The notes below the pieces were generated by a model. That model searched no databases and was not told the DNA's origin. It saw only the letters and a program-made list of their open reading frames with translations. DNA of 64,000 nt from Bacillus pumilus (GTDB lineage Bacteria > Bacillota > Bacilli > Bacillales > Bacillaceae): assembly GCF_009937765.1 (NCBI RefSeq), contig NZ_CP047089.1, forward strand, positions 310,001 to 374,000. The letters run 5' to 3'. The translations under genes and the position numbers were made by a program. The first letter of the stretch is position 1; every line of letters begins with the position of its first letter. Below, piece after piece: positions 22,077 through 25,977 of the stretch.

Positions 22077-22499
22077 ATGACACAAAACCAAATTTCAATT
22101 CATGTAAAGTCAGTGATGAAACCAGAGACGGAGCCGGCTGAAACGATCGAATTCCGCACGACTGGAACGTATCAAGAAAAGAATGAAAAAACGTATCTCA
22201 CTTACCATGAAGAACATGAAATGGGTCAAGTAAAAACCGTTGTGAAAATGAGTGAAAAAGAAATTTTTGTCATGAGATCAGGGGCCATTCAAATGAAGCA
22301 GCGCTTTCTCATCGGAGAAACGACCGTCACACATTATACGATGCCATTCGGTACACTACAGCTTGATGTGCACACACATGGCATTGATCTGGATGTGGAC
22401 AAGGGACTGCTGCACATTACGTACGATATGCTGACAGGGGAAGACCAAAAGCATTTACATACATTATCGATTTCATATAAGGAGGATTTACGTTCATGA
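22077..22499 (+). CDS. ywiB: DUF1934 beta-barrel protein YwiB
   Basis: A 140-residue calycin-like DUF1934 protein: alternating beta strands such as [32 protein letters not shown] and [10 protein letters not shown]. Its stop codon overlaps the argS start (ATGA at 22496-22499), the same coupling as in B. subtilis. Function unknown. Confidence 0.88.
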
Positions 22500-24169
22500 A
22501 TATCGCAGAACAGGTCAAAGATGCGTTAAAAGAAGAAATTATTGCGGCAGTCGTCAAAGCAGGACTTGCTGATGAAAGCCAGGTACCAGATGTCCTTTTA
22601 GAAGTGCCGAAAGACAAAACCCACGGTGATTACTCCACCAATATGGCGATGCAGCTTGCCCGCATTGCAAAAAAAGCACCTCGTCAAATCGCAGAGGACA
22701 TTGTCAAAGCGTTTGATAAAGGGAAAGCTTCTATTGAAAAAATGGATATCGCAGGTCCAGGGTTCATTAACTTTTATATGAACAATCAGTATTTAACAAA
22801 GCTCATCCCTGCTGTCCTTGAAGCAAAGGAAGCATATGGTGAAACGAATACAGGCGGCGGCCAAAAAGTGCAAGTTGAATTCGTCTCAGCCAACCCAACA
22901 GGTGACCTTCACCTTGGACATGCCCGCGGAGCAGCTGTAGGTGATTCTCTTTGCAACATCCTTGATAAAGCAGGGTTCGACGTGAGCCGTGAATACTATA
23001 TCAACGATGCAGGGAATCAGATCAATAACCTCGCTTTATCTGTAGAGGTACGTTACTTTGAGGCGCTCGGTCTTGAAAAAGAGATGCCTGAAGACGGGTA
23101 CAGAGGAGAAGACATCAAAGGCATCGGGCAAAAGCTGGCAGATGAATTTGGTGACCGTTTCGTGCACGAGTCAGAAGAAGAGCGTATGAAGTTCTTCCGT
23201 GAATACGGCTTGAAATACGAATTGGAGAAATTACGTGTAGATCTTGAGAATTTCCGTGTCCCATTTGATGTATGGTATTCAGAAACCTCTTTATATGAAA
23301 ACGGAAAAATCGAACCAGCGCTGGAAACGCTTCGCGAAAAAGGCTATGTCTTTGAAGAAGATGGTGCAACGTGGCTGCGTTCAACTGATTTTGGCGATGA
23401 CAAGGATCGCGTGCTCATTAAAAAAGACGGCAGCTTCACTTACTTGCTTCCAGATATCGCATATCATAAAGACAAATTGGACAGAGGCTTTGACCAGCTC
23501 ATTAACATTTGGGGCGCGGACCATCACGGCTATATCCCTCGAATGAAAGCGGCGATTCAAGCACTTGGATATCCGGCTGGCAAGCTTGAAGTAGAAATCA
23601 TTCAGCTCGTTCATCTATACAAAAACGGTGAAAAGATGAAGATGAGTAAGCGTACAGGAAAAGCCGTCACCATGCGTGATCTGATTGAAGAAGTAGGCCT
23701 AGATGCCACTCGTTATTTCTTCGCGATGAGAAGTGCGGCGACACATATGGACTTTGACCTAGACTTAGCGATTTCTACGTCTAACGAAAACCCTGTGTAC
23801 TACGCACAATATGCCCATGCGAGAATTTGCAGCATGCTGCGTCAAGGTGAAGAAAAAGGCTACGAGCCAAATCTTGAAAAAGCAGATTTCTCTCACATTC
23901 ATTCAGAAAAAGAATACGATCTTCTGAAAATCATTGGCAGCTTCCCAGAAGTGGTAGCAGAAGCAGCTGAAAAGCGTATTCCGCACCGTGTGACGAACTA
24001 TATTTATGACCTTGCATCAGCCCTTCACAGCTTCTACAATGCCGAAAAGGTCATTGATGTAGAAAATGAAACAAAAACAACAGCACGTCTTTCACTCATG
24101 AAAGCAACACAAATTACGCTTGCGAATGCATTAAAACTAATTGGTGTATCGGCTCCGGAAAAGATGTAA
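22496..24169 (+). CDS. argS: Arginyl-tRNA synthetase
   Basis: A 557-residue class I synthetase. The ArgRS-specific N-terminal domain is followed by the HIGH-type motif [18 protein letters not shown], the KMSKR version of the KMSKS loop and the helical anticodon-binding domain. Full length and intact. AAGGAGG overlaps the end of ywiB, so translation is coupled. No T-box leader is visible upstream. Confidence 0.97.
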
Positions 24170-24219: not shown

Positions 24220-24498
24220 TCATCGTTCAGCTGTTAGATCACTTTTATGTCTCTGGAAAATCTCAATTTCGTAAACCTCTAATGCTTGTTTAGGAAGTTG
24301 CTTTTCTAATGCAGAATGCAAACCTGCCATATCTTTTGAAGTATCGATGCCAATGGATATTGTGGGCTCTGTCTTGATAATCTGATAGTTAAACAATTTA
24401 TACTCTTCCCATAATGAGTCCAATACGTGGATGACCTTATCATCTAATTCCTCTTCAGAAAGGGTGAGAGTTTTTGAAGTGAAACTTAATCCAATCAT
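24220..24498 (-). CDS. Hypothetical 92-residue protein
   Basis: A small soluble protein (MIGLSFTSKTLTLSEEELDD onward) with an alternating alpha/beta pattern and no recognised family. The ATG has no visible ribosome-binding site (upstream bases GAATCTCTTTGT). It lies 22 bases downstream of the terminator of the two peptide genes on the same strand, so read-through may be its only source of transcript. Whether it serves the peptides is unknown. Confidence 0.5.
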   Translation of the reverse strand: MIGLSFTSKTLTLSEEELDDKVIHVLDSLWEEYKLFNYQIIKTEPTISIGIDTSKDMAGLHSALEKQLPKQALEVYEIEIFQRHKSDLTAER

Positions 24499-24520
24499 AC
24501 AAAGAGATTCAGAATCTGTT

Positions 24521-24561
24521 AAATAAAAAACATCCGCTATCTACTAGAGACAGCGGATGTT
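24521..24561 (-). terminator. Terminator of the twin-peptide transcript
   Basis: On the minus strand AACATCCGCT and AGCGGATGTT form a 10-bp stem with a 13-nt loop followed by a T-rich tail. Confidence 0.88.
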
Positions 24562-24566
24562 GAACA

Positions 24567-24632
24567 TTACCCAAGCGTATTAATAATATTAGAAATAGAA
24601 TCAAATAATTGGCTAAGTACATCAGAAAACAT
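24567..24632 (-). CDS. 21-residue amphipathic peptide, copy B (PSM-like)
   Basis: A 22-codon gene with AGGAGG 9 nt before its ATG. The peptide begins MFSDVLSQLF and ends NIINTLG, and is identical in all 21 residues to copy A. Hydrophobic residues fall at 1, 2, 5, 6, 9, 10, 13, 16, 17 and 20, a near-ideal amphipathic helix with net charge about -2. It has no signal peptide or leader. Size and helix pattern recall alpha phenol-soluble modulins and leaderless peptides. Eight codons differ from copy A and every change is silent, which argues for selection on the peptide. Confidence 0.78.
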   Translation of the reverse strand: MFSDVLSQLFDSISNIINTLG

Positions 24633-24682
24633 AGTTTGTATCCTCCTTTCGGCAAGCATGTAGTATGTGTGCGTTAATGGGA

Positions 24683-24748
24683 TTAACCAAGTGTGTTAAT
24701 AATGTTAGAGATAGAATCGAATAATTGGCTAAGGACATCAGAGAACAT
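24683..24748 (-). CDS. 21-residue amphipathic peptide, copy A (PSM-like)
   Basis: The promoter-proximal copy, with AGGAGG 7 nt before its ATG and the same 21-residue product as copy B. The two genes are 50 bases apart in one transcript that ends at the hairpin 24521-24561. The 100 bases upstream are AT-rich and show no clear SigA, SigB or SigH promoter. Possible roles are a surfactant or lytic toxin, a spreading factor or a signal; none can be settled from sequence. Confidence 0.78.
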   Translation of the reverse strand: MFSDVLSQLFDSISNIINTLG

Positions 24749-24844
24749 GTTTTTGCCTCCTCTCTTTTCTTTTTACATTTACTTAACGAAGGGGATGAAG
24801 GGTTGGATCACTTTTTCTAAAAAATTTTTAAAAAAGAGGGTGGC

Positions 24845-24888: not shown

Positions 24889-25860
24889 TTATGAATGAAT
24901 GCGCAGCTTCACGTCTCCATTTTCACACGCTAGCTGAACGTTTCCGCCAATCGGTAAGGTGAAAACCGGCTGCGTATGTCCGATATCGACATCGTAGATC
25001 ACGGGAATGTGTTTAAGCATCGGGTGTTTATCTAAAATGAACTTCAAATGTTCTTCTGTCATCTTGGATTTCTTCTGAAAGCGTCCGATGATCAACCCTT
25101 TAATGGACTCTGCATGCTGCAAGAGGGAAGTGAGGTCTCTGGCGAACATTTCAGGGAAGGCCAACTCATCATCCTCCACAAATAAGATGGCGTCCTTGAT
25201 TTGAGGCATAAACGATGTCCCTTGCAGTAAGTTCAGTGTACAAAGGTTCCCTCCATACAAGGTGCCTTCGGCTGTTCCTTCCTGATAGATTCCCCATCTC
25301 GTCGGATGAAACTGTCTGTTCGCTTGATCAAGATACCACGCATCATCACTCCACTTGGTCGAAGGGGTCACATCAAAAGACTCACCGTCATTCATCAAGC
25401 AGGCTTGAAACATAGCCGTCTGCTCCTCTTGCCCCTGCTTCATTTGAAAGCTGGAGAAATGGGGTCCAGAGTATGTCACCATCTCACATTTGGCTGTAAT
25501 AGCGCTTGCGAGTGCGGTAATATCACTGTATCCGCAAAGAACTTTAGGATGCTGACGGATCAAGTCGTAATCGATGTAAGGCAAAAGTTCATTGCAATTG
25601 AAGCCACCAATGGCGGTCAAAATACCGTCGACCTCATCATCTGTGAATGCCTTATGCAAATCAGACAAGCGGTGTTCAATAGATGATGAGGAATGAAGAT
25701 CACATTCAAACACGTGCTGTCCAAAAGAGACAGTGAAACCTAAAGCCTCTAAACGTTTTTTTGCTTGAGCGATTCCTTCTTCTGATAAAATGCTGGCACT
25801 TCGGCTTGGGGCAATGACACGAAGATGACTGCCTTTTCTTAAAGGAGAGGGTGTATACAT
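24889..25860 (-). CDS. S66-family peptidase (LD-carboxypeptidase / MccF-like)
   Basis: A 323-residue cytosolic serine peptidase. The family features are IAPSRSASI near the start, LTAIGGFNCNELLPYIDYD, the nucleophile elbow CGYSDITAL (Ser), GGNLCTLNLL and the late GHTQP carrying the catalytic His. Family members cleave L,D-tetrapeptides in murein recycling or inactivate microcin-C-type peptidyl-nucleotides. The start is ATG at 25860; an in-frame TTG lies two codons earlier. A second, divergent paralog lies at 29.4 kb. Confidence 0.88.
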   Translation of the reverse strand: MYTPSPLRKGSHLRVIAPSRSASILSEEGIAQAKKRLEALGFTVSFGQHVFECDLHSSSSIEHRLSDLHKAFTDDEVDGILTAIGGFNCNELLPYIDYDLIRQHPKVLCGYSDITALASAITAKCEMVTYSGPHFSSFQMKQGQEEQTAMFQACLMNDGESFDVTPSTKWSDDAWYLDQANRQFHPTRWGIYQEGTAEGTLYGGNLCTLNLLQGTSFMPQIKDAILFVEDDELAFPEMFARDLTSLLQHAESIKGLIIGRFQKKSKMTEEHLKFILDKHPMLKHIPVIYDVDIGHTQPVFTLPIGGNVQLACENGDVKLRIHS

Positions 25861-25977
25861 AAACAAATCTTCCTTTCCATCACATATTTATCCATTATAT
25901 CGGATCAAATGACCCAAGTCTGTAAAAGCTAGAAGAAAGGCATAGGTCGTGCGTTTCATACAAGCTGTGCGAAGGGT

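Follow-up and report, generated by a model that had tools for sequence, protein, structure and literature searches.

Two tiny tandem genes of Bacillus pumilus, located in the 64,000-nucleotide stretch of DNA analyzed here (the window), seem to be part of an as yet undescribed family of tandem tiny peptides that stands under one envelope-type σ factor in several Bacillus-related groups. Comparison with related genomes indicates that these genes are real and kept by selection, and a shared regulation of the peptide, σ and wall-protein units is well supported. We propose that the products are σ-controlled, leaderless peptides that act on membranes or surfaces to protect the envelope and that the long class of the family is exported, a reading to which we assign a probability of about 0.5.

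The first-pass annotation had described two 22-codon minus-strand genes, 50 bases apart, for the same peptide, each preceded by AGGAGG and closed together by a single terminator, and the unit was found as described. Gene 1 (24683–24748) and gene 2 (24567–24632), each of 22 codons including the stop, encode the identical 21-residue peptide MFSDVLSQLFDSISNIINTLG. By direct reading, their ribosome-binding sites occupy 24756–24761 and 24642–24647 on the minus strand. An intrinsic terminator with a 14-pair stem and a T-rich tail ends the unit on that strand at 24529–24561, and the fold energy of this region (24520–24566) is –21.2 kcal/mol. An alternative in-frame ATG at 24659, upstream of gene 2, would give 30 residues and has no AGGAGG 5′ of it. 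The two genes differ by eight bases in eight codons, and all eight changes are silent, as had been noted. If single changes fall at random, with a 2:1 weight for transitions, the expected silent share is 0.26, so that eight of eight has a probability of ∼2e-5 if the changes are independent, which argues that the peptide is under selection. We consider it very likely that the genes are translated. In the own genome, a single 3.77-Mb contig, these two are the only copies at E ≤10.

The unit is flanked by a gene for an S66 LD-carboxypeptidase (24889–25866) and by the convergent argS (22496–24169), which is reached beyond the terminator after a small unrelated open reading frame. This frame (24220–24498, minus strand) has a DUF4030 match below the cut-off, and its start looks truncated: in an alignment, a longer, signal-peptide-like beginning is seen in genomes G025, G030 and G031 and is absent from the own genome. 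A scan for σ70 promoters returned five promoter-like sites versus 3.9 in shuffles, and an Rfam scan gave no match close to the gathering score. An ABC half-transporter gene lies 2.8 kb from the peptide unit and presumably resembles ywjA. In B. subtilis, ywjA is Fur-regulated according to PMC3896406.

The earlier proposal that the peptide has been kept while the DNA drifted also holds among relatives that have the σ factor described below. A search of 120 relatives gave peptide matches in 14 members of the genus, the own genome included; one further match, in G091, was rejected as a chance hit (E 0.39, no ribosome site on reading). All 14 genomes of the pumilus clade carry the locus, in one to three copies and damaged in two of them, while the other 30 of the 44 genomes of the genus gave no peptide match. 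Thirteen members of the genus have the adjacent S66 gene at 85–100% identity, versus ≤52% in the other 21 with such a gene, and the peptide locus is present in all 13 as well as in G035, where the S66 gene was not found. Named carriers within the clade are B. altitudinis, B. safensis (two), B. australimaris, B. zhangzhouensis, B. xiamenensis and Bacillus sp. 28A-2. Counted as minima by codon column, 17 copies from nine clade genomes with the σ factor described below show 19 silent changes and one replacement, and five copies from five clade genomes lacking it show 14 silent changes and seven replacements. The latter include a nonsense codon and an altered 3′ end in G043, and a changed residue together with a lost stop in G028.

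Upstream alignments of the pumilus clade revealed a conserved block, TGATCCAA-N14-CGTTAAGTA, that stands out from far less conserved surroundings. It lies at 24780–24810 on the minus strand, 31 bases 5′ of the first ATG, and represents a putative ECF-σ-type promoter. The extent originally given for the unit, 24521–24765, thus covers the genes and the terminator and leaves this block outside; the ECF-type promoter, the regulon sharing it and the kindred arrays of other families had all been missed. When up to three mismatches were allowed, the own genome yielded 68 sites versus 28 control sites. With the tighter motif TGATCNAA-N14-CGTWAAGTA, which was drawn up after six of the 68 sites had been read, three sites remained versus none in the control. 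They precede the peptide unit, a gene for a secreted wall protein of 460 residues followed by a sortase gene, and a gene pair for an ECF σ factor and its anti-σ factor.

Across the genus, the 25 zero-mismatch matches are confined to 13 peptide-bearing genomes among the 44. Allowing one mismatch gave 41 matches in 16 genomes versus 12 for the reversed control. Thirty of these 41 sites were read: 13 stand before the peptide, seven before the wall protein, five before the σ gene, one at a deleted σ gene and four before nothing fitting, so that the same three targets recur in relatives within the genus. Upstream of the wall-protein gene, the motif was present at 30 of 30 loci (10 in the own genus, 20 in other genera; reversed control 0/30), and upstream of the σ gene at 26 of 42 (reversed control 0/42); at the strictness used, it is missing from the remaining 16.

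The ECF σ factor carries the domains Sigma70_r2 and r4_2, and the next gene encodes an anti-σ factor with zf-HC2 and RskA_C domains. ECF σ factors usually use one promoter type for their own gene and for their targets. Since the motif is common to the σ gene and the peptide unit, the peptide is most simply explained as a target of this factor, and direct control of the peptide unit by it is highly probable. The occurrence of the two is linked as well: a σ ortholog at E 5e-43 or better, with next relatives at 5e-18 or weaker, was found in 21 of the 30 peptide- or remnant-bearing genomes tested, and each of the 11 genomes with at least three peptide copies has it. In the other nine, the best relative stands at 1e-17 or weaker.

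The wall-protein gene (L025:1563–2945, corresponding to C1:220335–221717 of the own genome) encodes a secreted product with a sorting-signal-like end and a GVDTG_CTERM match below the cut-off. Relatives occur in 138 of 298 Bacillales genomes, and in G249, G284 and G106 the genes for σ factor, anti-σ factor, wall protein and sortase adjoin one another. Many of these relatives are labeled copper amine oxidase at NCBI; a Pfam scan of the own-genome protein detected no copper amine oxidase domain. An alignment of 57 sequences, taken from 120 listed relatives, shows two repeats that contain eight invariant histidines. The predicted fold is all-helical and has no clear relative among solved structures.

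A combined pattern of promoter, ribosome site and ATG matched 102 rows, corresponding to 101 sites, and these came from 73 of the 298 Bacillales genomes; the reversed pattern matched two. From the sites that did not fit wall-protein or σ coordinates, 13 regions were picked by eye and read; at least three further rows (G096, G116 and G294) lie outside these regions. Three of the 13 turned out to be arrays of tiny genes, in G220, G284 and G269. The array of G220 consists of seven 21-residue genes, six for MFTDILVQAFESVSSIIGTLG and the last one for MLTDVLTQLFESVSSIVGTLG, and those of G284 and G269 contain four and seven genes, respectively, of a 30-residue class, such as MNDITQILGDILNESGNESGNLDIDVSNLL.

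When 397 genomes of the order were searched with profiles, 13 proved to have convincing relatives of 21 residues. Four of these genomes belong to the pumilus clade, four to family f3 (Shouchella and kin) and five to family f44. In family f3, the copy number is seven in G220, five in G357, six in G294 and three in G337; a search by name yielded S. miscanthi and S. xiaoxiensis. Each f44 genome has two genes, MFNDVLMNLFNAVSSIINTIG and MLNEVLMNFFNAVSSIINTIG, which are altered in G353 and G411, and TGATCYAA-N14-CGTATTA stands upstream at the four loci read. Among 36 copies from the Shouchella family, 36 silent changes compare with nine replacements, and among the 25 copies of the main type, 17 with one. 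Most Shouchella arrays close with a distinct ML-type peptide and the f44 arrays pair an MF with an ML type, a hint that the two types may be partner peptides; the pumilus clade has the MF type only. Shouchella xiaoxiensis carries a six-gene array at L270 and, on a second contig (L273), two more genes of the 21-residue class, both of which have an ECF-type promoter of their own. No ABC half-exporter was found next to any 21-residue array read, nor, by eye, a common gene behind these arrays elsewhere. An FtsX-like permease gene lies ∼2 kb past the G337 array on the opposite strand (L245:4944–7001, minus strand). The other 97 of the 110 matching genomes were dropped, with best E values of 1e-3 or worse and matches mostly inside longer frames; the best two of these, G435 and G358, had on reading no tiny gene of the 21-residue kind. 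To look beyond the order, 240 genomes of the class were searched, with six matches, two from the pumilus clade and four weak and unconvincing ones.

The long class of 29–30 residues occurs in five genomes with four to 11 copies (four in G284, seven in G269 and 11 each in G249, G106 and G307), and G373 and G430 hold degraded remnants. At all five loci, the array is followed on the same strand by two genes with ABC_membrane and ABC_tran domains, that is, by a pair of half-exporters; in G106, the first of these genes is split into two frames, of which the membrane part alone was scanned. Terminator-like sequences were seen by eye between array and exporters (L174, L175). None of the 397 genomes contains convincing members of both length classes. 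The long-class search matched 60 genomes, and 53 of them were set aside as weak on the same grounds as the 97 above. Regarding the surroundings of these arrays (L255, L256 and L257 for G249, G106 and G307), that of G249 lies behind a wall-protein paralog and a sortase gene, and that of G106 near CopC/CopD-type genes and a fn3-like protein below the fn3 cut-off. Despite these neighbors and the name given to the wall protein, nothing in the data shows a copper signal.

The peptides of both classes share a characteristic chemistry. The window peptide had been described as a leaderless, anionic amphipathic helix of no recognized family, and the predictions agree: its helical hydrophobic moment of 0.553 is reached by none of 5000 shuffles, its net charge is –2, and it contains no Lys, Arg or His. 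For ten representatives of both classes, the net charge ranges from –1 to –6 and the best helical angle from 96 to 100 degrees, and shuffled sequences attain the moment in 0–0.06% of cases for the short and in 0.6–2.3% for the long class. Among 87 array members outside the pumilus clade that were read by motif, Lys, Arg or His occurs in none of 45 short-class and in three of 42 long-class members (one gene each in G106, G307 and G269). The short class is therefore anionic and free of histidine, which argues against a metal-binding peptide and against a classical cationic antimicrobial. A Pfam scan of the window peptide returned a single chance match, COG4_m, below the cut-off and no family above it; NCBIfam had no match for the window peptide, a Shouchella peptide and two long-class peptides, although family models may miss 21-residue relatives.

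Based on these observations, we propose the following model. A dedicated ECF σ factor would be held by its RskA-type anti-σ factor until an envelope signal releases it. The freed σ factor would then transcribe three units in the own genome: its own operon, the helical wall protein with its sortase, and the tandem peptide genes. Several identical genes, each with a strong ribosome site, would yield large amounts of the anionic amphipathic helix of 21 residues. Acting without a leader, this helix would most likely lie at the interface of the membrane or the cell surface and serve a program of envelope protection. The peptides of 29–30 residues would leave the cell through the neighboring ABC half-exporter pair, and those of 21 residues by some other route, or they would stay inside. 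Membrane or surface action of the peptide is probable; for export of the 21-residue class, we see the chances as even. The products are thus most likely leaderless peptides that act on membranes, are synthesized when the envelope is stressed and, for the long class at least, are exported. A bolder version remains tentative and somewhat doubtful: an undescribed envelope defense of the Bacillales, in which an ECF σ/RskA switch raises a sortase-linked helical wall protein together with a mass dose of leaderless anionic micropeptides, in two length classes, in arrays of up to 11 genes and sometimes as two partner peptides, that coat or stabilize the envelope, one class being exported by its own ABC pair.

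Some of this evidence would also suit a peptide of the same regulon that stays inside the cell and, like SpoVM, lies on the inner leaflet of the membrane, altering the membrane or a membrane protein under stress. The missing leader, the one-sided hydrophobic face and the lack of an ABC half-exporter beside the 21-residue arrays read all agree with such a role. It is harder to reconcile with the half-exporter pair behind the long class at five of five loci and with up to 7–11 copies, an unusual dose for a regulatory membrane peptide, and we regard it as possible, though rather unlikely. The exporters adjoining the long class would instead suit a leaderless bacteriocin-like peptide that the producer releases as an antimicrobial or in competition, as would a leaderless amphipathic helix and the two peptide types (MF and ML) of the Shouchella and f44 arrays. 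However, the short class has no positive charge, the sequence is nearly invariant inside each clade, no immunity gene was recognized, and the promoter is that of an anti-σ-controlled envelope regulon, all of which makes this explanation quite improbable.

The near invariance per clade, together with a surface protein and an anti-σ factor that are co-regulated, might also point to a peptide signal that reports to the anti-σ factor or the wall protein by autoinduction. Nothing points to a receptor, and seven or eleven copies better match a structural dose, so that we consider this very unlikely. Finally, the peptide product might be irrelevant, the short frames being leader peptides or an RNA element of the attenuator type. 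Short frames do precede a terminator, exporter genes do lie downstream in the long class, and bmrBCD of B. subtilis has a leader peptide. Yet divergence is mostly silent, so that the amino acids are what is selected; the window unit is closed by its terminator with unrelated genes behind; and no Rfam family comes near its gathering score. A regulated downstream gene, as for leader-peptide attenuators, is seen neither behind the window unit nor, by eye, as a common gene behind the other 21-residue arrays. Attenuation thus seems extremely improbable, and we return to envelope-protective peptides as the preferred reading.

Staphylococcal phenol-soluble modulins and δ-lysin are leaderless, short, amphipathic helices encoded in tandem copies, features that the Bacillales peptides share. 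The modulin likeness suggested at first therefore stands as to mode and fails as to family match and positive charge: the Bacillales peptides match no family model, have an ECF-type promoter, lack Lys, Arg and His in the short class, and show no ABC exporter beside the 21-residue arrays read. Leaderless bacteriocins of the aureocin/lacticin type are usually cationic. The Bacillales peptides resemble them in the missing leader and in the ABC exporters beside the long class, but are anionic, almost invariant per clade and without a recognized immunity gene. They may work somewhat like modulins or leaderless bacteriocins, but differ from them in sequence and charge. SpoVM is single-copy and sporulation-controlled; it is similar in being a very small amphipathic helix that could in principle settle on a membrane, whereas the Bacillales peptides are tandem and have an ECF-type promoter. 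With SigK/RskA-type systems, the regulator shares an ECF σ factor with a zf-HC2 and RskA_C anti-σ factor and a motif before the σ gene and its targets, but the Bacillales factor goes together with a wall protein, a sortase and the peptides. We found no description of these peptides in the literature: a full-text search with the peptide and three fragments returned no paper, and the sections read of PMC10272403, PMC3171730, PMC7406223, PMC3858371, PMC3896406, PMC5504735 and PMC6561321 do not describe them. Genes of such length are hard to detect by sequence alone. Starting from one peptide, the promoter motif brought to light arrays in several bacterial families, a hidden gene class tied to a defined σ factor. 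It also provides a concrete regulon for an uncharacterized ECF system and for a large wall-protein family often named copper amine oxidase, a domain not found in its own-genome member. The role of mass-produced leaderless peptides in the stressed Gram-positive envelope, and their route out of the cell, can now be tested.

The fate of the peptide after loss of the σ factor was followed in the nine genomes lacking an ortholog. In G003 (L187, C1:816500–820500), a deletion has removed the ECF σ gene and most of the anti-σ gene, so that the σ promoter now adjoins the anti-σ 3′ end; peptide and wall protein are intact. Relative to the clade, a residue, start or stop of the peptide is changed in six of the nine (G028, G043, G353, G411, G373 and G430), the ribosome site of G016 is weaker, and G035, like G003, has an intact peptide. 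Among the 12 σ-bearing genomes of the pumilus clade and f44, the only changed copy is copy 2 of G030 (I16M). For the 21-residue class in these two groups, any changed copy is found in one of 12 genomes with the σ factor versus four of seven without (Fisher P 0.038, classes set after the data had been seen). Replacements versus silent changes by σ presence in the pumilus clade gave a Fisher P of 0.045, again with post hoc classes and with several of the seven replacements in σ-less genomes going back to a single alteration at the 3′ end of the G043 gene. A midpoint-rooted argS tree indicates four separate losses in the clade if the factor is ancestral (G016; G028 with G043; G035; G003), so that the losses are few and the genomes are not independent in this test. 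The direction fits relaxed selection on the peptide after loss of its regulator, and the test is supportive only.

The predicted promoter is old, and its use extends beyond the three units. In the ten regions of the combined pattern without tiny-gene arrays, the site stands before three lipoproteins, a sortase, a DUF4383 protein, a molybdopterin oxidoreductase, two GGDEF-type proteins (one scanned) and two σ genes (one scanned). One of the lipoproteins is YtkA-like, one falls just under the YtkA cut-off and one has no match. In other genera, the promoter thus stands before YtkA-like lipoproteins (L177, L178, L179), GGDEF-type proteins (L184, L185) and a molybdopterin oxidoreductase (L186), which suggests a wider redox or envelope regulon under the same promoter there.
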